From Lachnospiraceae bacterium (GTDB lineage Bacteria > Bacillota > Clostridia > Lachnospirales > Lachnospiraceae): a DNA stretch of 44,469 nt. The stretch covers positions 1-44,469 of the forward strand of contig JAFRZM010000010.1 in assembly GCA_017442585.1 (NCBI GenBank). Reading direction: 5' to 3'. A program made the translations under genes and the position numbers. This document shows, piece after piece, positions 21,151 through 32,901 of this stretch (its first letter is position 1; each line of letters opens with the position of its first letter). Below the pieces are notes generated by a model. The model saw only the letters and a program-made list of their open reading frames with translations. It was not told where the DNA came from and did no database searches.

Positions 21151-22143
21151 TCAGATATCAATCATTTCGTCTAGAGAATAATCTCTTTTTGCTGTCGTTC
21201 CTATTATCTCGTTCCAGAACATAGGCGAAAGCCCTGTTCCCGGGCGTTTAACGGTTAGGTTTTCTTCCGTAAAGGTCTGGCCCTTCTTAATATCACACGC
21301 GGCAACTATGCTCTTTCTTGCAACGGCTTTGTTTTTAAGCTCTGACTCAGTCGGTGCCTTCTTGCCCGTACCGAGCGCTTTTTCGATATTTCTTATCGCA
21401 TCTACCATGGCTTTTAACTCATATGGTTCAAGGCTCGCCTTGTGGTCCGGCCCTTCCATGTTTTTATCCAGGGTAAAGTGCTTCTCTATAACAGTCGCGC
21501 CGAGTGCCACCGCAGCTATCGGAACTTCGATGCCCTTTGTATGATCGGAATAGCCCACCTTTACGTCAAACGTTTCTTTCATTGAAACCATTGCCTTAAG
21601 ATTTACATCTGTAAACGGTGTCGGATACTCTGTGTTGCAATGAAGAATCGTAATCTCGCCTGCTCCGTTTTCTTTTAAAACATTTATCGCGGCATCTATC
21701 TCGTTCAAATCGCACATACCGGTGGACATAATGACGGGCTTATGAGTTTTCGCAAGCTTTACAAGATACGGATAATTCGTAACCTCACCTGACGGAATCT
21801 TCCAAAACGGCATATCAAGTGAATTCAAAAAATCCACGCTTTCCGAATCGAAAGGCGTTGAAAGGAATGTTATACCGACCTTGTCGCAATACTTTTTCAA
21901 TTCTATGAATTCGTCATACGAAAGCTCTAACTTTTTAAGCATTTCCTGCTGAGAACTGTCACCTGTGGTTTCTTTCTGGTACTCAGCCTTTACGGCATTT
22001 TTCGAGACAAGCTTTTCTGCCTTAAAGGTCTGGAACTTTACGCAATCCGCTCCTGCAGCCTTCGCCGAGTCAACAAGCTTTTTCGCAATCTCTAGCTTGC
22101 CGTTATGATTCACTCCCGCTTCCGCGATAATGTATACGCTCAT
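21151..22143 (-). CDS. neuB: NeuB-family nonulosonate synthase with SAF domain
   Basis: A 330-residue PEP-dependent aldolase. The TIM barrel shows YIIAEAGVNHNGKLEIAKKL, DCVKFQTFKAEKLVS and QKETTGDSSQQEMLKKLELS, then TILHCNTEYPTPFTDVNL and the GYSDHTKG/EKHFTLDKNMEGPDHKAS blocks. The C-terminal 60 residues (about 270-330) form the SAF antifreeze-like lid (RKSIVAACDIKKGQTFTEEN). It condenses an N-acylated hexosamine with PEP to give a sialic, legionaminic or related nine-carbon acid; sequence alone does not choose among them. Last gene of the cluster, 64 bases after the epimerase, followed by a terminator. No CMP-synthetase is in the window. Confidence 0.9.
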   Translation of the reverse strand: MSVYIIAEAGVNHNGKLEIAKKLVDSAKAAGADCVKFQTFKAEKLVSKNAVKAEYQKETTGDSSQQEMLKKLELSYDEFIELKKYCDKVGITFLSTPFDSESVDFLNSLDMPFWKIPSGEVTNYPYLVKLAKTHKPVIMSTGMCDLNEIDAAINVLKENGAGEITILHCNTEYPTPFTDVNLKAMVSMKETFDVKVGYSDHTKGIEVPIAAVALGATVIEKHFTLDKNMEGPDHKASLEPYELKAMVDAIRNIEKALGTGKKAPTESELKNKAVARKSIVAACDIKKGQTFTEENLTVKRPGTGLSPMFWNEIIGTTAKRDYSLDEMIDI

Positions 22144-22207: not shown

Positions 22208-23086
22208 TTACAAATTACTTAGCGAATCTCTCACGCCTTGTTCAAAGGTGATGCACGGCTTCCAATCGGTGTCCGCTTTAAGTTTCGATATATCAGGGCT
22301 TAGGGAAACGTATGGATTTGGATCTTCGCCATACGATACCTTACCATGCGTTCCGGTTATATCTTCCATTATCTTTACATATTCCTTTAGCGGTCTGTAG
22401 TCGCCTGCTGCCACGTTATAGATTTCACCGCTTTTACCTCTTTCTACAAGCGCAATTAAAGCATTCGCAGCATCCCTTGCATCGAGATAATCCCAATTTT
22501 GATTACACGAGGACAAAGCAAACTCCTTATCCTCTTTTAACGCTTTAAGTAACGCAGGTAACATTCGGTTTTCAGGTTCCTGCACTCCATATAGACTAAA
22601 AATTCTCGCCCAAATCCAATCTAAATCAAGGTCGGATGCAAGTTTTCTTGAAAGATAAAGTGTCGCAACTTTCGCAGCTCCATATGCACAGAAAGGATTC
22701 GGTGTTAAGTCTTCTGTTTCAATTTCACGTGTTGCACCATATTCAGCCTGCGAGCCCGTGGTTATAATGCGCTTGCAATTAAGCCTTTTTAGTTCCTTTA
22801 TAAGCTTAATAGCCGCATCGACGTTCTTCTTCTGTGATTCGAAATCATTGCGTTTGCCCGCCCACGCAAGATGGAAGGCTACATCTGCATCTTTTACCTT
22901 GTCCGGTAATAAAAAGTCACCCATAAGGTCAACTTCTATCATCTCTACATTAGGCATACCCTTAAGCAATTCGTTATGCATCGATCCCGGGTACACTAAA
23001 GCAAAGACCCTATCTCCACGGTCCGACAATGCCTTTGTTAAGTTATAACCCAAAAATCCGGCTGCACCGGTTACTATTACTCGCAT
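22208..23086 (-). CDS. NAD-dependent sugar epimerase/dehydratase (extended SDR)
   Basis: A 292-residue extended short-chain dehydrogenase. The Rossmann motif is VTGAAGFLGYNL (5-16; TGxxGxxG), with HLAWAG at 72-77 and catalytic YxxxK at AYGAAK (Y135, K139). Family members change C4, C5 or C6 of nucleotide sugars. It is shorter than typical GDP-mannose or CDP-glucose 4,6-dehydratases (about 340-360), so a 4-epimerase or 4-keto reductase is likelier, but the substrate cannot be read. GGAAAGG precedes the ATG. It follows the transketolase C-half by 16 bases. Confidence 0.85.
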   Translation of the reverse strand: MRVIVTGAAGFLGYNLTKALSDRGDRVFALVYPGSMHNELLKGMPNVEMIEVDLMGDFLLPDKVKDADVAFHLAWAGKRNDFESQKKNVDAAIKLIKELKRLNCKRIITTGSQAEYGATREIETEDLTPNPFCAYGAAKVATLYLSRKLASDLDLDWIWARIFSLYGVQEPENRMLPALLKALKEDKEFALSSCNQNWDYLDARDAANALIALVERGKSGEIYNVAAGDYRPLKEYVKIMEDITGTHGKVSYGEDPNPYVSLSPDISKLKADTDWKPCITFEQGVRDSLSNL

Positions 23087-23102: not shown

Positions 23103-24032
23103 TTAAAGCATCGACTTCATCGTTTCATATATTCCGTCCGCATCCATCTTAAATTCATGATAAAGATAAGGCGCATGTGCCATCGGAACAAACTCATCTT
23201 TCACGCCAAGTATTTTAAGCTTCGTGCTTATTCCTTCTTCTGCAATTACAGTTCCTACGATGCTTCCAAGTCCACCCGATACATTATGATCTTGTACGAC
23301 TACCACTTTGCCCGTTTTTGATGCGCTTATTACAGCTTCCCTATCTATAGGTTTAACAGAATAAAGATCGATAACTCTTATATCCTTGCCACAGTCTTCT
23401 TTTATCTTATGTACAGCTTCTATAGCATATTGTACTGTGACGCCCGTGCAAAGAATCGCACCGTCATCACCCTTCACAGCTTCTATCGAGCCGCCCGGCC
23501 TTACATCTATATTCTCATCATATATATCATCCACAGGTTCAACCGTACATCTCACATACATCGGGCCTTCATGAATAAGCGAATAATCCATGACCTTCCT
23601 TGCAAGTACCGCATCGCTTACTTCAAAGACTGCAATATTCGGAATCGAAGTCATAATGCCCACGTCTTCTATTCCCCAATGCGTAGCGCCAGATATTCCG
23701 CCTGACACACCTGCATATACACTTATAAGTCGCACGTTCCTATTTCCATATGCAACATCGGTTCTGACCTGTTCCAATGCTCTCATCGACAAAAACGGAG
23801 CCATCGAAAACGTATACGGAATAAAACCTTCCGTTGCCATACCTGCCGCAAAAGATACCATATTCTGCTCAGCGATTCCAACATTAAAAGAACGATTTGG
23901 ATACTTCTCGATGAAGCTTTTATTTCTGCATGTTCCGGCGAGGTCGGCATTAACGAGAAGCACTTTGGCCTCTTTATCACCAAGGGTTGTCATGTATTCA
24001 CCGATAACATTTCTAAGGAAACTCTTACTCAT
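23103..24032 (-). CDS. Transketolase, C-terminal subunit (split enzyme)
   Basis: A 309-residue pyrimidine-binding plus C-terminal half of transketolase. It has NVGIAEQNMVSFAAGMATEG, which contains the catalytic glutamate of the cofactor site, then THWGIEDVGIMTSIPN and a C-terminal domain with VVVQDHNVSGGLGSIVG. With the N-half encoded just upstream it should form one heterotetrameric enzyme that moves two-carbon ketol units and can make sedoheptulose 7-phosphate. The gene overlaps the N-subunit by 8 bases (ATG within CATGAGTAA), giving balanced coupled translation. Split transketolases recur in surface-glycan clusters. Confidence 0.92.
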   Translation of the reverse strand: MSKSFLRNVIGEYMTTLGDKEAKVLLVNADLAGTCRNKSFIEKYPNRSFNVGIAEQNMVSFAAGMATEGFIPYTFSMAPFLSMRALEQVRTDVAYGNRNVRLISVYAGVSGGISGATHWGIEDVGIMTSIPNIAVFEVSDAVLARKVMDYSLIHEGPMYVRCTVEPVDDIYDENIDVRPGGSIEAVKGDDGAILCTGVTVQYAIEAVHKIKEDCGKDIRVIDLYSVKPIDREAVISASKTGKVVVVQDHNVSGGLGSIVGTVIAEEGISTKLKILGVKDEFVPMAHAPYLYHEFKMDADGIYETMKSML

Positions 24033-24870
24033 GACCCCACCTCTTTACATACTGATCTTTAAGCGCGGAAATTGCCTCTTTAAGCTCGTCGTCGCTTACC
24101 TTACCCGCATGGTAACATGGATTATTCTCCATAAAGGATACGCCCTTGCCCTTGACGGTATGAGACACTATGCACGTCGGAACATCCGAATCCGCACCCG
24201 GGAGCGCATCAAACGCGCCCACAATTTCTTCTATATTGTTACCGTCTATCTCGATGACATTCCAGCCAAAAGTACGATACTTATCAGCTATATTGCCAAG
24301 GCCTGTTATGTCTTCTATTTTCCCATCTGCCTCTAAACCGTTATTATCAACTATCGCAACAAGATTACCGAGCTTATAGTTTACGGCATTTATCGCAGCT
24401 TCATATATCGAACCCTCGGACTGCTCGCCGTCACCCATTACGGTATATACGCGACTTTTCTTATTACCCTTAAGCCGAAGCGCTGCTGCCATACCGCAAG
24501 CCACAGGCATACCATGTCCTAAGCTTCCTGTAGATACCTCAACATAAGGATTAACAAGATTGCAGGAATGCATAGAAAACCTGCCTTCATCAGTCGCATA
24601 TTCATTTATAACATCTTCTGCCAAAAAGCATCCTATCATCGCCTGGCAAAAACTTGTAACAGCAGATGCATGGCCCTTTGAAAGGACGAATCTGTCACGG
24701 TCTTCCGCGTTAATATTTTTCGGATCGTAATTCATATACTTAAGCCAAAGCACCGTCATTACATCTGCCACCGACAAATCGCCGCCGATATGAATGCTTT
24801 CGCGATTACACAATGTAAGCAGATTGATTCTAATCTCAAGAGCCGCTTTTTCAAGGTCTTTTATAGTCAT
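24025..24870 (-). CDS. Transketolase, N-terminal subunit (split enzyme)
   Basis: A 281-residue ThDP-binding half. It shows HIGGDLSVADVMTVLWLKYM, FVLSKGHASAV, GSLGHGMPVACG and the cofactor motif VMGDGEQSEGSIYEAAINA, ending in the NNG characteristic of the GDG-N(25-30)-NN pattern. It pairs with the downstream C-terminal subunit. Placement within a NeuB/RfbF cluster suggests a dedicated role in making or elongating a special sugar rather than central pentose metabolism. AAAGGTGG lies about 10 bases from the ATG. It follows an FkbM methyltransferase gene by 33 bases. Confidence 0.93.
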   Translation of the reverse strand: MTIKDLEKAALEIRINLLTLCNRESIHIGGDLSVADVMTVLWLKYMNYDPKNINAEDRDRFVLSKGHASAVTSFCQAMIGCFLAEDVINEYATDEGRFSMHSCNLVNPYVEVSTGSLGHGMPVACGMAAALRLKGNKKSRVYTVMGDGEQSEGSIYEAAINAVNYKLGNLVAIVDNNGLEADGKIEDITGLGNIADKYRTFGWNVIEIDGNNIEEIVGAFDALPGADSDVPTCIVSHTVKGKGVSFMENNPCYHAGKVSDDELKEAISALKDQYVKRWGHE

Positions 24871-24903: not shown

Positions 24904-26106
24904 TTACCTTAAATGCTCAACATCATTTTTGTCTACTGCATAGCATACGACGTCATGGCCGACGGAGCTATGCACTCTATACCGGATTCTGTAATCCGGA
25001 TTTAGTTTCTTTAAAAGAATCGGAATCTCCATAAACTGCTTTAAGCCATGATACATAGAAATTGCGCAAAGCGGCTTTTGTTCCTTTATTATATGTTCAG
25101 CACCATGTATTGCAGGGATTTCGCTATTCTCGATATCCATCTTTATAAAGGTAACTTTTTTGCCTTTTAAACATTCGTCCAAAGCATTAACTTCCGCAAA
25201 AAGGCACTCTTCATTATTTGCCTCTACCGTATCAGAAATATGACTTCCGTCGTTTTGTGCTACAATCTCAACTTTCTCATACTTATCATACAAACCATAC
25301 GGATAAACTCGATACTTATCTGCGTCTTTTTCAACTTTTTTTATCTGAGCTTCGAGCCTTGACCTATTAACATCTTCGAGTTCGAAACCGTAGTATTTTT
25401 CGTATTCCCCATTTGTCCAATCGTTATACGTAACAAAGGTGTCTCCGCAAAACGCACCGCCATCGACAAAGCATTCATCTTTTCTAGGCTTTAAGAAATC
25501 CGGGAAATAATGCTTAGGCTCAAACCATTTTTCGATAATATTATCCGCATCTATATCTCTATAGTCTTTTAACAACACTTCCACATAGTCACGTATCAAT
25601 TCCTTAGACTCAGCATCTTCAGCATAATCCAACATCGTCATTATGTTTTTCAAAAAGTCGTCCTTATCTATTTCCACGATTTCCTGAATCATGTATGCCA
25701 TATTCTTCCATAACGGTCCTCTTACCACATTTTTAAAACCGGCATCATTCAGCTGACCGTTTATAGCATCATTGATCTTTCTTACCCCATTGGAAGGACT
25801 TACAAAAACAAGACATTCGTCCTTATACTTACACAATTCATCGAATGTTATAAGCTTGGCTTCTCCTTTATACGTTGCCTTTACCGATTCATAATTATTA
25901 TCGCAAACGAAATCAACAGGCACACCGAACCTACCCATCATACGAAGCATTTCTCCACCCAACGAGCCCATTCCGAATATACAAATATACTTGTACTTAT
26001 TTCTCAGTTCTTTAAAGTATTCTGCCCGGCTATTATTCTTTACCGCTTCTTTCGCAGTTTCAAAACATTCTTCAATTATTCTTGCTACATCTTCCTTTAC
26101 GCTCAT
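24904..26106 (-). CDS. FkbM family methyltransferase with N-terminal Rossmann-like domain (A)
   Basis: A 400-residue two-domain protein. The N-terminal half has a nucleotide-binding-like stretch, YICIFGMGSLGGEMLRMMGR, then FVCDNN. The C-terminal half is an FkbM SAM-dependent methyltransferase, with FVDGGAFCGDTFVTYNDW, FELEDVNRSRLEAQI, FIKMDIENSEIPAIHGAEHI and SMYHGLKQFMEIP. It should O-methylate a sugar or a glycan intermediate. It lies 26 bases downstream of a paralogue of the same layout. AGAGG precedes the ATG. The substrate is unknown; N-terminal domains of this kind occur in glycan-cluster FkbM proteins. Confidence 0.85.
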   Translation of the reverse strand: MSVKEDVARIIEECFETAKEAVKNNSRAEYFKELRNKYKYICIFGMGSLGGEMLRMMGRFGVPVDFVCDNNYESVKATYKGEAKLITFDELCKYKDECLVFVSPSNGVRKINDAINGQLNDAGFKNVVRGPLWKNMAYMIQEIVEIDKDDFLKNIMTMLDYAEDAESKELIRDYVEVLLKDYRDIDADNIIEKWFEPKHYFPDFLKPRKDECFVDGGAFCGDTFVTYNDWTNGEYEKYYGFELEDVNRSRLEAQIKKVEKDADKYRVYPYGLYDKYEKVEIVAQNDGSHISDTVEANNEECLFAEVNALDECLKGKKVTFIKMDIENSEIPAIHGAEHIIKEQKPLCAISMYHGLKQFMEIPILLKKLNPDYRIRYRVHSSVGHDVVCYAVDKNDVEHLR

Positions 26107-26132: not shown

Positions 26133-27182
26133 TTATATTGCATATAATACCGAATCAAGATCCATCGTTGTATGATGTCTGAAATACAGCTTGTAATCAG
26201 GATTAAACTCTTTGATACATTCAGCAACTTCCACGTAATGCTCAATCAAGTGATACACGCAAATCGCGAGCTTTGGCCTATTTTTCTTAATAAGATTTTC
26301 CGCTCCCTTTAATGCCAAGACCTCGCTTCCCTCTATATCCATCCAGATTAAAGTCGCATCGTTTACATCTGCATCGTCGAGTTTCACCGCCTTAATTGTT
26401 TCGGCGTTTTCGTTTATAGGCTCGTTTTCTCTTACCGCTACAACATGCGCCGATAAGTCAACCGAATTATCAAGCAAAAGCGTGACATTCTCATTAAACA
26501 AGCCATTTTCGCGAACTACTATATTAGGATTATCCTTATACTTATCGCGCAACAAGTCGGCATATTTTGCATTAGGTTCAAAAGCATAACATTTTATCTT
26601 AGGGTTAATCATAAGTGCCCTATCGATATGCTCGCAGTTATAACATCCTCCCGCGATAATCACATCATTATCGTTTAGGTTAGGAATCACATCGTTTCCG
26701 TAATACGGATTAAAAGAGATACAAGACGGCGCATATATAACGCCACGTCTATAATCTTCTATCTTCGTTCTGAATAATTCTTTCGAAAGGTCATCCGATA
26801 ACCATGACTCTACTCTGTCAATCCTATCCTTGTTATCCTTTATAAATATATAATCATCGATGGATTTTACGGTTATCGTCATGAAATAATATGCACCCAT
26901 ATGGCGGAGCTGATCTACTATCGCCAGCCAATGGGTTGCAATAATAATAACCGTCTTTTTATAATCCTCGCTCATAACTTTTTTCGGATCTTCAATGGTT
27001 AAATTTCCAAGCCACTTTGTGCCCCATTTTTCTGGATTATTATCAACAACATACTTAGGCATCGGAAGTACACCGGAAGCTAAATACTTATTATAAAACT
27101 CCGCGCTTTTTACTCCCGCTCCAAACAATATCCAATCATAATCCGAAGGTTTTGCAAGAATTTCATCGATAAAATTATACAT
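26133..27182 (-). CDS. FkbM family methyltransferase with N-terminal Rossmann-like domain (B)
   Basis: A 349-residue paralogue of the next gene. The N-terminal half has DYDWILFGAGVKSAEFYNKY and YVVDNNPEKWG; the C-terminal half has CYAFEPNAKYADLLRDKY, LIWMDIEGSEVLALKGAENL and ICVYHLIEHYVEVAE. The start at 27182 is chosen because GAAGGAGA, formed by the end of the aminotransferase gene, lies about 10 bases upstream. The longer frame from 27218 overlaps that gene and lacks a ribosome site. The start is 7 bases after the aminotransferase stop. Two methyltransferases imply two methylation positions or two different sugars. Confidence 0.85.
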   Translation of the reverse strand: MYNFIDEILAKPSDYDWILFGAGVKSAEFYNKYLASGVLPMPKYVVDNNPEKWGTKWLGNLTIEDPKKVMSEDYKKTVIIIATHWLAIVDQLRHMGAYYFMTITVKSIDDYIFIKDNKDRIDRVESWLSDDLSKELFRTKIEDYRRGVIYAPSCISFNPYYGNDVIPNLNDNDVIIAGGCYNCEHIDRALMINPKIKCYAFEPNAKYADLLRDKYKDNPNIVVRENGLFNENVTLLLDNSVDLSAHVVAVRENEPINENAETIKAVKLDDADVNDATLIWMDIEGSEVLALKGAENLIKKNRPKLAICVYHLIEHYVEVAECIKEFNPDYKLYFRHHTTMDLDSVLYAI

Positions 27183-27189
27183 TCGCAAC

Positions 27190-28422
27190 CTATTCTCCTT
27201 CTTTGAACATTTTTTCAATCCCGTTTATAAGATAATCAAATTCCTCTTCCGTTAAATAATAATTCGGCAATAACCTTATCGTTCTTCCCGAATTGCAGTC
27301 CTGCAAAAGCAAATTCTGCTTCAACGCATTCAGGACAAAGCTCGAACCTTTTATGGCTGCTTCCTTATCGGAAATGCTTTCATCCGATATGTCAAAGCCG
27401 CACATAAGTCCGCATCCACGCGCGTTTCTTATTCTATCCGGATATTTCTTTTCTAATTCTTTAAGCTTTGAAAGTAACAATTCGCCTTTCTTTACATTAC
27501 TTTCCAATAATCCGCCCTTTTTAATTGTATCAATTACTCCGCAAATAATCGCAGAGGCAAACGGATCGTTCTGATGCGAAGAATACATATGCATAACATA
27601 TGAATCTTCATTAAAAGAATTACCGTTAAACAAAACTGCTGAAACAGGGTATCCCGCACCGAGTCCTTTTGATAATGTAATTGCATCAGGCACAACTCCG
27701 TATCTTTGACAGCAAAACCAAAAGCCGGTTCTTCCCATTCCGGTCTGTGCCTCATCAAAAGCAAGGAATATTCCATTACTTTTAAGGATTCTTTGTGTTT
27801 CAACAAAATAACGCTCATAAGGAATAATAAGTCCTCCCGACGATACAATCGGTTCAAAGAACGCGCATGCAATCCTATCTTTATATGTCTGCACAGTAGT
27901 CTCAAGCACCTCAAGACACTTATCTATTTCATCTTCTGAATTATTCTTCGGAACCGGAACCACATATGTATCAGGAACAGCAGGTCTTACATGTCTTCCT
28001 GCCATAGAATAGCTTTCCGTACCATGCGTAAGGCCATGATATGCTCTGTCAAAGCAAATGACTCCGGGCTTATTATTTAAAAACTTTAAATATCTAAGGC
28101 AAGCCTCATTTGCTTCGGCGCCTGTAGATAATATAACCACTCTGGCATTCATTTCCGGACATATATCATGTAAATAATCAGCTGCTTTTACCGCGTCCTC
28201 GGACAATGCTAAAGTTCCCGTGTTTTGAATCTTCAAGGAACTGTCCGCTACTATCTTTGCAATATCCTTATTCGAATGTCCCAAAATCGCGCAAAACTGT
28301 CCGGAGTTTAAATCAAGATATTTATTTCCGGAGGTATCATATACCCATGAACCTTCGCCTCTTGATAATACAATCGGTAATTGTGTTAATACAGGGAAAA
28401 AATGTCTCGTAAAATTGTCCAT
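27190..28422 (-). CDS. Class III PLP aminotransferase (aspartate aminotransferase family)
   Basis: A 410-residue fold-type I enzyme of the class III (acetylornithine/glutamate-1-semialdehyde) group. Motifs are STGAEANEACLRYLKF (99-114), FFEPIVSSGG (188-197), DEAQTGMGRTGFW (223-235) and TLSKGLGAGYPVSA with the PLP lysine K252. Sugar aminotransferases are more often of the DegT type, so a class III member in a glycan cluster is notable. It may act on an aldehyde or keto group of an acyclic or side-chain carbon, or make an amino-acid substituent. It follows the ThDP enzyme by 12 bases; AAGAGG lies before the ATG. Confidence 0.88.
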   Translation of the reverse strand: MDNFTRHFFPVLTQLPIVLSRGEGSWVYDTSGNKYLDLNSGQFCAILGHSNKDIAKIVADSSLKIQNTGTLALSEDAVKAADYLHDICPEMNARVVILSTGAEANEACLRYLKFLNNKPGVICFDRAYHGLTHGTESYSMAGRHVRPAVPDTYVVPVPKNNSEDEIDKCLEVLETTVQTYKDRIACAFFEPIVSSGGLIIPYERYFVETQRILKSNGIFLAFDEAQTGMGRTGFWFCCQRYGVVPDAITLSKGLGAGYPVSAVLFNGNSFNEDSYVMHMYSSHQNDPFASAIICGVIDTIKKGGLLESNVKKGELLLSKLKELEKKYPDRIRNARGCGLMCGFDISDESISDKEAAIKGSSFVLNALKQNLLLQDCNSGRTIRLLPNYYLTEEEFDYLINGIEKMFKEGE

Positions 28423-28434
28423 ATATATTTCCTC

Positions 28435-30180
28435 TTATAACTTCGGCCACATGTCTTCCAATAATCCCGACTTCATCTGTCCGTTCTCGCCGACATATGC
28501 TTTAACACGCGGCGATACTGTTTCTGTCGGATCCATATGAAGCATTACAAGTATAGGCTTGTCGTCCTTCATAATATTAGGTAAAAGCTCATCCAATTCA
28601 GTATTATTCTTAATTTCTAAGGTTTCAAACCCATAAGCTCCTGCCACTTTTATCATGTTCGGAATCGTATGACCGCTGTCCTCACTACTTCCTACATAAT
28701 GTCCTTCGAAGTTATTACGCTGCATATTACGGATACTAGCATATCCGCCGTTACTCCAAATAAACATCTTTACCGGAAGATTAAGGCGATGCATCGTTTC
28801 TAATTCCTGGATATTAAGCTGGAACGCGCCGTCACCGTTTATAAGAATTGTTCTTCTCTTATTATTTGCAACGCAGGCACCGATAGAATACGGAAGTCCG
28901 AATCCCATAGAACCGAGTCCTGCAGCATTTTTCATCTTCTGACCATCTTTAATCCTAAAAGCCTGATACGTAATCTCGCCCGCGCCTCCGGAACTTTCAG
29001 GAACAATTACATCATCGTTTCTTAAAAGTTCACATAATCTATCCGTGAAATAGTATGCCGAAACGAAATCTTTAACCTCTTTATGTGCAGATGTAACTGC
29101 AGGGAACTTGCGGCGCTTTTCTTTACAGAAATCAAGCCACTCCTGCCAGCTAAACTCTATGCCTTCAGTGCATATTTTTTCATTAAGTGCTACTATAAAC
29201 TCTTTTGCATCGCAGGCCTTCTTTATTTCTGCGCTCATGCCCATGCGTTTAAGCTCATTTTCATCAATATCGATAATGACTTTTTTAGCATTAAACGCAA
29301 AATGCTCGTCATTAAACGCTGTAATACTTGTATCAATTCTTGAGCCTACAGAGATTAAAAGGTCTGCCTCTTGTAAAATAAGGTTCGCGCCTCTATCTCC
29401 CATGATGCCCGGATGTCCGACGTAAAGTTCATCATCCTCCGCGAACATGTCTATCGTCTTCCATGTTGTCTGCACCGGAATTTTAACCTTTGACAATAAT
29501 TCCTTTAATTCAGAAACTCCGCCCGAAAGCTTTATTCCGTTACCGGCTAAAAGAAGCGGTTTTTTAGATTCTTTTATTAAATCAACCGTCGTCTTAATGA
29601 CTTCTGTCAAATCCGGCTTATTTTCATCGGAAGGTGTATATCCTTCCAAACTATCTTCATCAATCATCGTGCCCTGAACATCAAGCGGCACATCAAGCCA
29701 TACCGGTCCCTGACGGCCGGTTGTCGCTTCACTCCATGCTTTTTCAAGGTAATACTTTATTCTTTCAGGTTCAAGTACCTGCACCGCGAACTTCGTAATC
29801 GGAGTAACCATAGGAACAATCTGTACTTCCTGCGATCCGATCTGGCGCACGTTTTTATCACCTACAAGATCCGCGCGCTTTGCCTGTCCGGATATTATAA
29901 ACATCGGTGTCGAATCAATCCAGCCTGCCGTAACCGCGGTTATGGCATTAGTAGCACCCGGACCCGATGTAACTACGCAAAGTCCCGGCGTATTTGTATG
30001 CTGGCCATACGCTTCCGCTGCAACCGACGCTCCCTGCTCATGTAAAAACGGGATATACCCGATTCCCGATTTACCGAGTGAATCTACCAAATGCATAGCG
30101 CCTCCGCCCGGAAGCATAAACGCATGGCGAACACCTTTTTCTTTTAAAAATTTAAAAACGTAATCAGACAGTTTAATCAT
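28435..30180 (-). CDS. ThDP-dependent enzyme, acetolactate synthase-like
   Basis: A 581-residue three-domain ThDP enzyme. The catalytic glutamate is in FLHEQGASVAAEAYG (E48). The middle domain runs about 195-330. The cofactor motif is INGDGAFQLNIQELETMHRL (GDG 449-451, N456), ending NGGY. It groups by pattern with acetolactate synthase and related enzymes such as YerE, which adds a two-carbon acetyl unit from pyruvate to a keto sugar. No small regulatory subunit or other branched-chain amino acid gene is adjacent, so a role in branched-sugar synthesis is more likely than valine synthesis. Its ATG directly abuts the stop of the HAD-SIS gene. Confidence 0.87.
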   Translation of the reverse strand: MIKLSDYVFKFLKEKGVRHAFMLPGGGAMHLVDSLGKSGIGYIPFLHEQGASVAAEAYGQHTNTPGLCVVTSGPGATNAITAVTAGWIDSTPMFIISGQAKRADLVGDKNVRQIGSQEVQIVPMVTPITKFAVQVLEPERIKYYLEKAWSEATTGRQGPVWLDVPLDVQGTMIDEDSLEGYTPSDENKPDLTEVIKTTVDLIKESKKPLLLAGNGIKLSGGVSELKELLSKVKIPVQTTWKTIDMFAEDDELYVGHPGIMGDRGANLILQEADLLISVGSRIDTSITAFNDEHFAFNAKKVIIDIDENELKRMGMSAEIKKACDAKEFIVALNEKICTEGIEFSWQEWLDFCKEKRRKFPAVTSAHKEVKDFVSAYYFTDRLCELLRNDDVIVPESSGGAGEITYQAFRIKDGQKMKNAAGLGSMGFGLPYSIGACVANNKRRTILINGDGAFQLNIQELETMHRLNLPVKMFIWSNGGYASIRNMQRNNFEGHYVGSSEDSGHTIPNMIKVAGAYGFETLEIKNNTELDELLPNIMKDDKPILVMLHMDPTETVSPRVKAYVGENGQMKSGLLEDMWPKL

Positions 30181-31236
30181 CTAGCCAAACATTCTCCATT
30201 CTACGTATTCTGCAATTACATGACCGATAAAAATATGTGCCTCCTGAATTCGAGGTGTTATTCTTGACGGGACTCTTATTATATATTCCGCATATGTATT
30301 TATCATCGGATCTTCATTGTTACCGGTTAAAAGGACCGTTATAATACCGTTCCCTTTTGCATATCGAAGTGCTTCGACTACATCCTTCGATGTACCGCTT
30401 GTTGAAATACCGATAAGCATGTCGCCCGATTTCGCTTTGGCCTCAAGCTGTCGAGCGAAGATTCGCTCGAAACTGTAGTCGTTGCCGATTGCTGTTATTG
30501 TTGATGTGTTTACAGATAACGCTTCGGCATTTAACCCCGGACGTTCCTTATAGAAACGGCTTACAAATTCTGTCGCGATATGCTGCGCATCTGCCGCGCT
30601 TCCGCCGTTACCGCAGGTAAAAAGGCGATTTCCGTTTTTAAAAAGTTCTATAAGTTTATCGCCTATTGCCGTTACCGCATCGGTGACTGCTCTATCCGTC
30701 GCAAGAGTTTTGAAAATATCTGTATGCTCCTGCAATCTCTTGTAAAAATAATTGTGAGAAGAAAACTCATCGTTATATTCTTCGAGAATAGTTAAAAGCT
30801 CCCAAATACAGCCTTTACCACCGTCGTTTTGAAGAATCATCTTGGCTGCTGCCTTGGCCTTATCAATTGCATTTCTCGGACATACGCCAAGTCCCGCGAA
30901 AGTCAAAGGCTCAACGTCGTACTTACCGTCACCGACGTAGCAGATATGTTCTCGCGAAATTCCGGTTCCTTCTTCTATCTGAAGCATTGCATCCTTTTTC
31001 GTCTTGCTGCCTCTATAGAAATACTCCCACGGAAATCTTTTTTCGAAATAATCAACTATGTCCGTATCTTCACCGGTTATCGCAGCAATCTTATATCCGC
31101 GACGATGAAGCTCAAATATCGCATCGACATCTTTTAAGTTAATCTGCTTTTGCTCATGACCTTCGGAATCAATTATCATAGATCCGTCAGTTATAACGCC
31201 GTCAATATCAAATACAATGAGTTCGATTTTCTCCAT
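30181..31236 (-). CDS. Fusion of KdsC-type HAD phosphatase and GmhA-type SIS sugar isomerase
   Basis: A 351-residue bifunctional protein. Residues 1-155 are a KdsC-like C0 HAD phosphatase: FDIDGVITDG (D10, D12), ITGEDTD (T54), SKTKK and YVGDGKYD (D103, D107), ending GGKGCIWELLTIL like KdsC. Residues about 160-351 are a SIS isomerase of the GmhA group: FTCGNGGSAADAQHIATEFV with E223, LIGISTSGTSKDVV, and RIQEAHI with Q331 and H334, matching sedoheptulose 7-phosphate isomerase active-site residues. Both active sites look intact. It lies 3 bases after the SAF-less NeuB homologue. Together they resemble a KDO- or KDN-type route: isomerase, PEP condensation, dephosphorylation. Confidence 0.9.
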   Translation of the reverse strand: MEKIELIVFDIDGVITDGSMIIDSEGHEQKQINLKDVDAIFELHRRGYKIAAITGEDTDIVDYFEKRFPWEYFYRGSKTKKDAMLQIEEGTGISREHICYVGDGKYDVEPLTFAGLGVCPRNAIDKAKAAAKMILQNDGGKGCIWELLTILEEYNDEFSSHNYFYKRLQEHTDIFKTLATDRAVTDAVTAIGDKLIELFKNGNRLFTCGNGGSAADAQHIATEFVSRFYKERPGLNAEALSVNTSTITAIGNDYSFERIFARQLEAKAKSGDMLIGISTSGTSKDVVEALRYAKGNGIITVLLTGNNEDPMINTYAEYIIRVPSRITPRIQEAHIFIGHVIAEYVEWRMFG

Positions 31237-31239
31237 GGC

Positions 31240-32073
31240 CTATCCTCTTAGCTTTTTCTTGGTTTCTTCTTCTGCAGGCGAAAGAACTTTCTTTCCGTCT
31301 CCCATTATCTTTTCCGTATCACGAATATTCTTTACAAGTTCGCATAATTCGTACGGCTCTATCGATGCTTTCTGGTCCGAACCGTACATCGTTTTATCCA
31401 ATGTGATATGTCTCTCTATAGATGTTGCACCCATTGCTACCGCCAAAGCACTTATAAGAATTCCTGCCTCGTGTCCGCTGTAACCGACTTTGCAACCGTA
31501 CTTTTCAGCCAATGTATGTATAAGATTAAGATTTGCGTCTTCCTTCGGCATCGGATATGTGCTGTTGCAATGCATAAGTTCAAACGGGCAATCATGCTTC
31601 TTAAATATCTCAACCGCATGATCTATCTCATCTAACGTACTCATTCCCGTACCGATAAACGTATATCGCTTTTCAGATGCGATTTCCTCCAAAAGGTCGT
31701 CACGCACAAGCATCGCTGATGCAACTTTATTATATTTTAAATTATATTTACGTAAGAAAAGCTGTGAATCCACATCCCATGCGGATGCAAACCACTCTAT
31801 ACCTTTTTCTTTGCAATATCTGTCAATCTCGTCGTACTCTTTTTCACCGAACTCGAGGCCTTCCTTCTGCTCTCGCTGAGTTGTGCCCCAAGGGCTTTGA
31901 CGCGGTCCGTCCAGATATTCTTTTGTATATACTTTATCTACTGTTCTTTTCTGGAATTTAACTGCATCGCATCCGGCAACTACCGCCGCATCAATAAGCT
32001 TTTTAGCTATATTTAGATCTCCGTTATGATTAATTCCGATTTCTGCAGTTACAAAGACATGATTATTGTTCAT
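31240..32073 (-). CDS. NeuB-family synthase lacking the SAF domain
   Basis: A 277-residue TIM-barrel PEP aldolase. It has FVTAEIGINHNGDLNIAKKL, DAVKFQKRTVDKVY, FIGTGMSTLDEIDHAVEIF, LMHCNSTYPMPKEDANLNLI, GYSGHEAG and HITLDKTMYGSDQKASIEPY. It ends at KKKLRG, exactly where the SAF (antifreeze-like) domain would begin, so it is about 60 residues shorter than the other NeuB in this cluster. The stop is followed 3 bases later by the phosphatase-isomerase fusion, so a phosphorylated sugar (as in KDN 9-phosphate or KDO 8-phosphate synthesis) is a reasonable substrate. AAGGAG sits 8 bases before the ATG. Confidence 0.88.
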   Translation of the reverse strand: MNNNHVFVTAEIGINHNGDLNIAKKLIDAAVVAGCDAVKFQKRTVDKVYTKEYLDGPRQSPWGTTQREQKEGLEFGEKEYDEIDRYCKEKGIEWFASAWDVDSQLFLRKYNLKYNKVASAMLVRDDLLEEIASEKRYTFIGTGMSTLDEIDHAVEIFKKHDCPFELMHCNSTYPMPKEDANLNLIHTLAEKYGCKVGYSGHEAGILISALAVAMGATSIERHITLDKTMYGSDQKASIEPYELCELVKNIRDTEKIMGDGKKVLSPAEEETKKKLRG

Positions 32074-32124: not shown

Positions 32125-32901
32125 CTACCAAACCTTCCACGGTGCGGCATTTTGTGCTATTAATTCTTCCAAAATGCGCTTCTCATGAAGTGAATCCATG
32201 CACTGCCAGAAACCTTTATGACGATAACTCATAAGTTCGCCTTCTTTGGCCAGTGTCTCAAGCGGCTCGCGCTCTAAGATTGTAGTATCGTCTTTAAGAT
32301 AATCAAATATCGCAGGCTCAAGTACCATATATCCCGCGTTTATAGAAACTTCCGCATTTGATTGCTTTTCACGGAAGGAACGTACTGCGCCGAGATAGTT
32401 GATATCCAATACGCCCTTATCCTGCTTTTGAGTTACGGCTGTAATTGTCGCTTTCTTTCCGTGACTCTTATGAAATTCGACAAGTTTTGCAATATCAACG
32501 TCGCAGACACCGTCGCCGTATGTAAGCATAAATGTCTCATTACCTATATACTTCTGCACACGTTTAAGACGGCCACCCGTCATTGTATCAAGTCCCGTAT
32601 CTACGCAGGTTACGCTCCACGGCTCGATATTGGCTTCGTTAACTATAACTTTACGTTTTCCGCCCTTAAACTCAAAAGTTACATCACAGTTATGAAGGAA
32701 ATAATCGTTAAACCATTCCTTTATCATGTACTGCTTATAACCGCAGCAAATAACAAACTCATTAAAACCGTAGTGTGAGTACTCCTTCATGATATGCCAG
32801 ATGATTGGTTTGTCATCAATCTCGATCATCGGCTTTGGCATGTAATCGGATTCTTCGGATATTCTGGTACCTCTACCACCTGCTAAGATTACTACTTTCA
32901 T
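32125..32901 (-). CDS. rfbF: Glucose-1-phosphate cytidylyltransferase
   Basis: A 258-residue nucleotidyltransferase. The N-terminal AGGRGTRISEESDYMPKPMI and the RfbF-specific blocks FVICCGYKQYMIKEWFNDYF, SVTCVDTGLDTMTGGRLKRV and MLTYGDGVCDVDI identify the CTP-dependent enzyme that makes CDP-glucose. The C-terminus has YRHKGFWQCMDSLHEKRILE. It is the first gene of the sugar cluster, 6 bases after the histidine kinase. CDP-glucose normally feeds a CDP-glucose 4,6-dehydratase (RfbG), which I do not see here. GAGGAG lies before the ATG. Confidence 0.95.
   Translation of the reverse strand: MKVVILAGGRGTRISEESDYMPKPMIEIDDKPIIWHIMKEYSHYGFNEFVICCGYKQYMIKEWFNDYFLHNCDVTFEFKGGKRKVIVNEANIEPWSVTCVDTGLDTMTGGRLKRVQKYIGNETFMLTYGDGVCDVDIAKLVEFHKSHGKKATITAVTQKQDKGVLDINYLGAVRSFREKQSNAEVSINAGYMVLEPAIFDYLKDDTTILEREPLETLAKEGELMSYRHKGFWQCMDSLHEKRILEELIAQNAAPWKVW

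Follow-up and report, generated by a model that had tools for sequence, protein, structure and literature searches.

A SAF-less NeuB-type synthase and a phosphatase-isomerase fusion as a putative donor module for a YerE-like carboligase in a Lachnospiraceae bacterium

Results

Gene content of the locus

We analyzed a 44,469-nucleotide stretch from a Lachnospiraceae bacterium (contig JAFRZM010000010.1), hereafter the window; L numbers denote loci and G numbers genomes, G000 being the genome of the window. The genes of interest all lie on the minus strand, in the order histidine-kinase-like gene (named by eye), RfbF, a short NeuB, a phosphatase-isomerase fusion, a thiamine-diphosphate (ThDP) enzyme, a class III aminotransferase (27190..28422, PF00202), two FkbM-type methyltransferases, a split transketolase, an NAD-dependent epimerase/reductase (SDR) and a full-length NeuB. 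Farther along this strand are flagellar genes, identified by eye in the translations.

The short NeuB gene (31240..32073) encodes a 277-residue protein of the putative PEP:aldose-phosphate synthase type. PF03102 is covered completely (positions 1-241 of 241, 3.3e-73). Against TIGR03569 the protein reaches 259.8 bits, below the cut-off of 399.65, and the match covers only model positions 1-274 of 329, which indicates that the C-terminal SAF part is missing. This agrees with the preliminary description of the locus, which had read a NeuB-like barrel ending where the SAF domain should begin and had correctly placed the module at 30181..32073 with 3 bases between NeuB and fusion. Residues E11, K39, Q41, H222 and D233, which we take to be the NeuB active-site residues, are invariant over 23 aligned NeuB rows (21 SAF-less and 2 full-length). 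The nearest solved relative is 6ncs, presumably a Leptospira protein. In Neisseria NeuB an arginine of the SAF domain touches the N-acetyl group of the sugar, so the loss of SAF fits a substrate that lacks this group. The other NeuB of the window (21151..22143) retains SAF, covers TIGR03569 from 1 to 329 of 329 at 526.5 bits, over the cut-off, and probably serves a separate legionaminic acid pathway.

The fusion is a single 351-residue protein that starts 3 bases after the short NeuB. KdsC-type HAD models cover residues ~2-155, and GmhA-type models and structures cover residues ~164-351. We accordingly delimit a HAD domain of the KdsC/KDN-9-phosphate phosphatase type (residues 1-155, 30772..31236) and a GmhA-type SIS isomerase domain (residues 164-351 plus stop codon, 30181..30747). 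The HAD domain scores 95.7 bits against TIGR01670 (KdsC; cut-off 106.95) and 91.8 bits against NF058599 (cut-off 180), and matches PDB 3e81/3e8m, which we take to be the phosphatase of the Bacteroides KDN-9-phosphate route, at 1.5e-20. The SIS domain scores 169.7 bits against TIGR00441 (GmhA; cut-off 209.45) and matches PDB 2xbl at 2.6e-45. Since the fusion falls below the curated KdsC and GmhA cut-offs, its precise activities cannot be read from family membership. D10, D12, T54, K78, K80, D103 and D107, presumably the catalytic motifs of C0-type HAD enzymes, are invariant over the 13 different fused proteins that we collected, as are H219, E223, N243, Q331, H334 and H339 of the SIS domain, among which H219, E223, Q331 and H339 presumably correspond to the zinc and catalytic residues of GmhA. 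This indicates that neither domain looks dead. Models and residues together bear out the KdsC-type phosphatase (D10, D12, D103) joined to a GmhA-type SIS isomerase of the preliminary description, and of the domain inactivity that it had named as a refutation there is no sign in these 13 proteins. Its three SIS residues (E223, Q331, H334) are indeed invariant, but judging by the spacing from Q331, which we equate with Q172 of E. coli GmhA, the zinc/catalytic histidine (His180) is likely H339 and not H334. We also considered N243 as a marker of the module. It occurs in 27 of 27 isomerase rows whose locus has a short NeuB, many of them one genome repeated, and the position holds Asp in 65 of the 89 other rows; with Asn in 16 of these 89, including L135 and L136, which are stretches of the same YerE loci, the marker is weak. 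A literature search for a HAD-SIS fusion of this kind turned up no description.

The ThDP enzyme (28435..30180), of the kind annotated as acetolactate synthase, starts straight after the stop codon of the fusion (gap 0). Among solved structures its closest relatives are 8rph (343 bits) and then 5ahk (268 bits), which we take to be PpYerE; the best acetohydroxyacid synthase (AHAS) reaches 238 bits, and the YerE-type structures come ahead of every AHAS listed. We therefore refer to it as YerE-like. In the alignment, 8rph displays the CDG motif, given as special to JanthE in the accessible part of PMC12247030. A search for plasmid-borne YerE relatives gave no match at 1e-95. RfbF, the glucose-1-phosphate cytidylyltransferase (32125..32901), passes the TIGR02623 cut-off (350.6 against 300.25 bits). 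Outside the window, contig C10 of the same genome holds RfbG (404.9 bits against a cut-off of 278.45) and an RfbH-like gene of the DegT family, adjoining two flagellin genes, an MptE-like (Maf-type) gene and legionaminic-type genes (LegB/NeuC/NeuA/PtmE-like); these flagellin, Maf and legionaminic names were read by eye from translations. Between the flagellins and RfbG, C10 carries the MptE-like gene and an 876-residue protein without Pfam match (L108:4246-9132), both candidates for sugar transfer.

Among the remaining genes, the SDR (22208..23086, PF01370) has homologues next to RfbH or YerE in L183, L195, L149 and L150 (33-53% identity), and is a candidate reductase of a branched CDP-sugar. 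Of the FkbM-type methyltransferases (26133..27218 and 24904..26106, both PF05050), the former is a candidate for sugar O-methylation.

Distribution of the fusion and its company

Relatives were collected from a scan of genome contigs (98 relatives, 80 loci kept) and from searches of 391 genomes of the class, 250 of the family and 398 of the phylum. The fused frame is present in 14 genomes as 13 different proteins (those of L029 and L030 are identical), which is more than chance. The genomes are those of the window, G367, G113 (the contig of L028), G491, G582 (the contig of L032) and of loci L024-L027, L029, L030, L031, L033 and L034. The fusion is rare, being found in 3 of the 391 class, 4 of the 250 family and 2 of the 398 phylum genomes, with that of the window counted each time. 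Loci repeating counted genomes (L001-L003, L028, L111-L114, L124 and L032) were left out, and of the 69 loci L035-L103 only L036 and L038 have the short NeuB, the rest being isomerase matches.

In each of the 14 genomes the gene immediately ahead of the fusion is a short NeuB, the co-occurrence of HAD-SIS architecture and SAF-less NeuB that the preliminary description had proposed as a check. A YerE-like gene is in the cluster at 12 of the 14 fused loci. As for the other two, the contig of L033 ends just after a set of TIM-barrel, Gfo/Idh and SDR genes that precedes YerE in L029, L109 and L131, and its genome gave no YerE-like gene at 1e-80; L034 has NeuA in place of YerE, with a weaker YerE-like gene on another contig of the genome. 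The TIM-barrel and SDR set, mostly with Gfo/Idh, was seen in L029, L030, L033, L109, L110, L131, L129, L036 and L034, and was absent from the window, L024-L027, L031 and L032. Twelve of the 14 genomes with the fusion have RfbH (10 of 12 in one examination, plus G000 and G113); it was not found in G582, which is 70% complete, or in the genome of L034. The same parts occur unfused in L129 and in L036 and L038, both Acidobacteriota.

Together 15 loci, 12 fused and 3 unfused, with the window included, combine a short NeuB with a YerE-like gene. All 15 have the SIS part, most of them having been found with the fusion as query, and NeuA was found in none of the stretches examined; in G113 a NeuA lies ~23 kb away within a legionaminic-type set (L195). 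FkbM genes are present in 9 of the 14 loci other than the window.

The split transketolase of the window (23103..24870; N part 24025-24870, C part 23103-24032; PF00456, PF02779/PF02780) had been proposed to feed a heptose phosphate into the module. We rejected this idea because transketolase genes occur in the stretches examined at only one of the 15 loci, the window itself, and a literature search found no description of a transketolase-NeuB link. Split transketolases do recur in Bacillota CDP-sugar clusters (window, 23103-24870; L187:6806-8505; L152:13786-15425). The one of L187 lies beside RfbF, RfbG and RfbH without a YerE-like gene, so these split transketolases may be branching enzymes in their own right. 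According to the accessible text of PMC12247030, split-gene transketolases of such clusters are known only from Streptomycetes.

2-Keto-acid-forming enzymes beside YerE-like genes

Should the module supply the YerE-like enzyme with its donor, other YerE clusters would be expected to hold other makers of 2-keto acids. A YerE-like gene was found at 1e-90 in 13 of the 398 phylum genomes, and we inspected the stretches around all 13, each of which contains at least one of RfbF, RfbG and RfbH. Nine of them have a 2-keto-acid-forming enzyme within 10 kb: NeuB in G000, G113 and G737; DAHP synthase in G689 and G800, accompanied in each by genes for a ribulose-phosphate epimerase, an RraA-like protein and a HAD protein; HpcH/HpaI in G716, G863 and G951, each with a HAD-like gene (recognized by Pfam in G951, by eye in G716 and G863); and an HMGL-like enzyme in G980. 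None of the four families was found within 10 kb in the remaining four (G832, G026, G779 and G902). G863 also has, within 10 kb, an HMGL-like gene adjacent to an AHAS-like one, a pair that probably belongs to leucine synthesis. As a control, the same families were found within 10 kb of 0 of 12 RfbH loci in 11 genomes that gave no YerE-like gene at 1e-90; the RfbH loci of G000 (C10) and G026 (C19), whose genomes carry YerE on another contig, were left out. The difference (9/13 against 0/12, Fisher p 0.00046) is to be read knowing that the families were chosen after seeing the YerE loci, that some control stretches end at contig ends and that related genomes do not count as independent. In a tree of 24 YerE proteins at least 5 changes of donor type occur, the minimum possible being 4; the NeuB-linked proteins form one side of a branch with a support of only 68/95, and one row was flagged as a long branch.

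Some YerE-like clusters have further features of their own. Alongside the YerE-like gene, L147:8283-11682 and L151:1529-5040 carry genes for a member of the DAHP synthase family, a ribulose-phosphate epimerase with a CBS tail, an RraA-like aldolase and a HAD protein, which points to a second donor module based on PEP. In L153:5137-10962 it adjoins a dehydroquinate-synthase-like gene, with an HMGL-like gene farther along; a carbocyclic or aldol-made branch is possible there.

Discussion

Going by the known chemistry of their families, a SIS isomerase, a NeuB-type synthase and a HAD phosphatase together yield a free 3-deoxy-2-ulosonic acid. We propose that the module makes such an acid as donor for a long 4-C-branched sugar built by the YerE-like enzyme, a proposal to which we give somewhat more credence than doubt. 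The SIS domain would convert a ketose phosphate to an aldose phosphate, the SAF-less NeuB would condense this with PEP to the 3-deoxy-2-ulosonic acid phosphate, and the HAD domain would remove the phosphate to leave the free 2-keto acid. The YerE-like enzyme would then decarboxylate the free acid on thiamine diphosphate and join the remaining chain, one carbon shorter than the ulosonate and with its deoxy carbon beside the newly formed ketone, to the keto group at C4 of CDP-3,6-dideoxy-4-ketoglucose, which RfbF, RfbG and RfbH would make together with an E3 (AscD/DdhD-type) reductase. Reduction by the SDR and O-methylation by FkbM would complete the branched sugar, perhaps for use on the flagellum. 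We infer each reaction, the donor role, the chain length (a C8-C10 acid) and the destination from the enzymes, their intact residues and their conserved order and association as read from the DNA. Mannose 6-phosphate (giving a C9 acid), arabinose 5-phosphate (C8) or heptose 7-phosphate (C10) may be the aldose phosphate; a heptose phosphate is possible, no more. A KDN-like acid would fit, since in Serratia KDN requires a NeuB extended by a COG1082 domain (PMC9000132, accessible part).

The preliminary description had proposed a dedicated route to the free ulosonic acid. Judged by sequence, its isomerase, PEP synthase and phosphatase making a free acid from a phosphorylated aldose are supported. 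The acid as end product is not, and the description passes over both the CDP-sugar gene and the YerE-like gene, which comes straight after the fusion and is in the cluster at 12 of 14 fused loci.

YerE-type enzymes decarboxylate a 2-keto acid and attach the rest to the keto group at C4 of CDP-3,6-dideoxy-4-ketoglucose, and the accessible text of PMC12247030 also describes their donor ranges. There, ErwE prefers hydroxylated donors longer than C4 and takes 4-hydroxy-2-oxo acids with a pyranone acceptor, MygE accepts C3-C8 2-keto acids with benzaldehyde and so far lacks ketone activity in vitro, and YpYerE transfers only up to C3. For MMAR_2332 the same text gives no test with ketones, and for two more candidates no acceptance of them so far. 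That several published long-branch candidates have yet to be shown acting on ketones, that four of the 13 YerE loci lack a donor maker nearby and that L034 pairs the same fusion with NeuA are among the reasons why we grade the donor role no higher.

L034, with short NeuB and fusion followed by NeuA and no YerE in the cluster, indicates that the acid can have another fate. It favors the strongest of the alternatives, though one that we judge unlikely, namely that a KDN- or KDO-like ulosonic acid is CMP-activated by NeuA and passed to flagellin by a Maf-type transferase, the YerE-like enzyme using pyruvate for a short-branched, yersiniose-like sugar. The KDN requirement in Serratia would suit this route too, as would the NeuA-like gene, flagellins and Maf-like gene on C10. 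At SAF-less NeuB loci free of YerE, moreover, NeuA or NeuA-HAD neighbors are usual: L120 (an Azospirillum plasmid), L121 (Nonomuraea), L130 (where NeuA is a weak, cut-off match), L011 and L012 have NeuA- and HAD-type neighbors, and L128 has NeuA with no HAD found. However, the NeuA of C10 sits among legionaminic-type genes and is accounted for by the full-length NeuB, none of the 15 loci with short NeuB and YerE has NeuA in its stretch, and the SIS part, present in all 15, is absent from L120, L121, L128, L130 and L122. The tight NeuB-fusion-YerE order would also stay unexplained. With NeuA at YerE-free loci and at none of these 15, the free acid seems to have NeuA and YerE as alternative destinations.

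Six plasmid matches were obtained and four of them examined. L123 (Hymenobacter) has NeuB only. At the Methylomagnum plasmid locus L122:7859-13471, consecutive genes for split transketolase, class III aminotransferase and SDR run on into SAF-less NeuB and HAD, gene kinds that the window has too; NeuA, SIS and YerE were not found in the stretch examined. A second kind of SAF-less NeuB, 47-49% identical, was seen in the same family (L115-L119), with no HAD, SIS or NeuA within 1.5 kb on each side.

Less probable still is that the module supplies a KDN-, KDO- or heptose-derived acid, free or otherwise activated, to a surface glycan, with YerE a mere island neighbor. The three activities do suffice for a free acid, and L115-L119 illustrate that SAF-less NeuB genes exist without such neighbors, but the gap of 0 to YerE and a company conserved across genera and, unfused, in Acidobacteriota argue against mere neighborhood. 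A role of the ThDP enzyme as ordinary acetolactate synthase in valine and isoleucine synthesis can practically be dismissed, for although it matches TIGR00118 at 357 bits it misses the cut-off of 538, YerE-type structures score first, and all 13 YerE-like loci hold CDP-sugar genes (RfbF, RfbG or RfbH).

The donor role for the YerE-like enzyme that we prefer can be set beside known systems. KDO synthesis comprises a SIS isomerase (KdsD), a PEP synthase (KdsA) and a C0-type HAD phosphatase (KdsC). The same three activities are predicted here, but with a NeuB-type synthase and a GmhA-type SIS, and with phosphatase and isomerase fused. The Bacteroides KDN-9-phosphate route likewise has a NeuB-type synthase acting on a phosphorylated sugar, and a related HAD phosphatase; it differs in that the isomerase is here fused to the phosphatase and YerE is in 12 of 14 fused clusters. 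Gastriose carries a C7 chain with a deoxy carbon beside the branching carbinol, the very chain that an eight-carbon 3-deoxy-ulosonic acid would leave behind. With the YerE-type pathways of yersiniose, erwiniose, caryophyllose and gastriose the genome shares a YerE-like carboligase, RfbF, RfbG and RfbH; among the enzymes of this kind, ErwE takes long hydroxylated 2-keto acids as donors and MygE takes long ones (PMC12247030, accessible part). Unlike them, it places a dedicated PEP synthase and a fused phosphatase-isomerase beside the carboligase, and does so in a Gram-positive, next to flagellar genes. Caryophyllose has a hydroxylated C6 chain at C4 (PMC7821131, accessible part). In Leptospira, which presumably also provides the nearest solved NeuB (6ncs), a NeuB-family synthase is coupled to a phosphatase as well, but there the two are fused to each other, with a phosphorylated route proposed and Neu5Ac made (PMC3438082, accessible part), whereas here phosphatase and isomerase are fused. 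Bradyrhizose was considered as a product and rejected: the accessible part of PMC4743980 names a putative dTDP-glucose dehydratase gene and no NeuB, and of ten queries only the isomerase found a match at the Bradyrhizobium locus L047.

Neither the parts nor the YerE principle is new. Our literature searches found neither the arrangement of SAF-less NeuB, fused phosphatase-isomerase and YerE nor the idea of an ulosonic acid as donor; priority is uncertain, as the latter may already be in print. The accessible text of PMC12247030 states no source for the long 2-keto acid donors of YerE-type enzymes. Quite possibly, though we stop short of calling it probable, bacteria make a sialic- or KDO-type acid in order to lose its carboxyl and splice the rest onto a nucleotide sugar, giving C13-C15 branched monosaccharides, with the donor maker exchangeable (NeuB, DAHP synthase, HpcH, HMGL-like) and YerE clusters forming a modular family for long-branched sugars, here in a flagellated Gram-positive. 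The clusters also caution against annotating SAF-less NeuB genes as sialic acid synthesis. If the proposal is true, a sialic-acid-type synthase would act as donor maker for carbon-carbon branching, and the clusters would give the source of the donor gene by gene and would predict the length of the branch from the donor enzyme.
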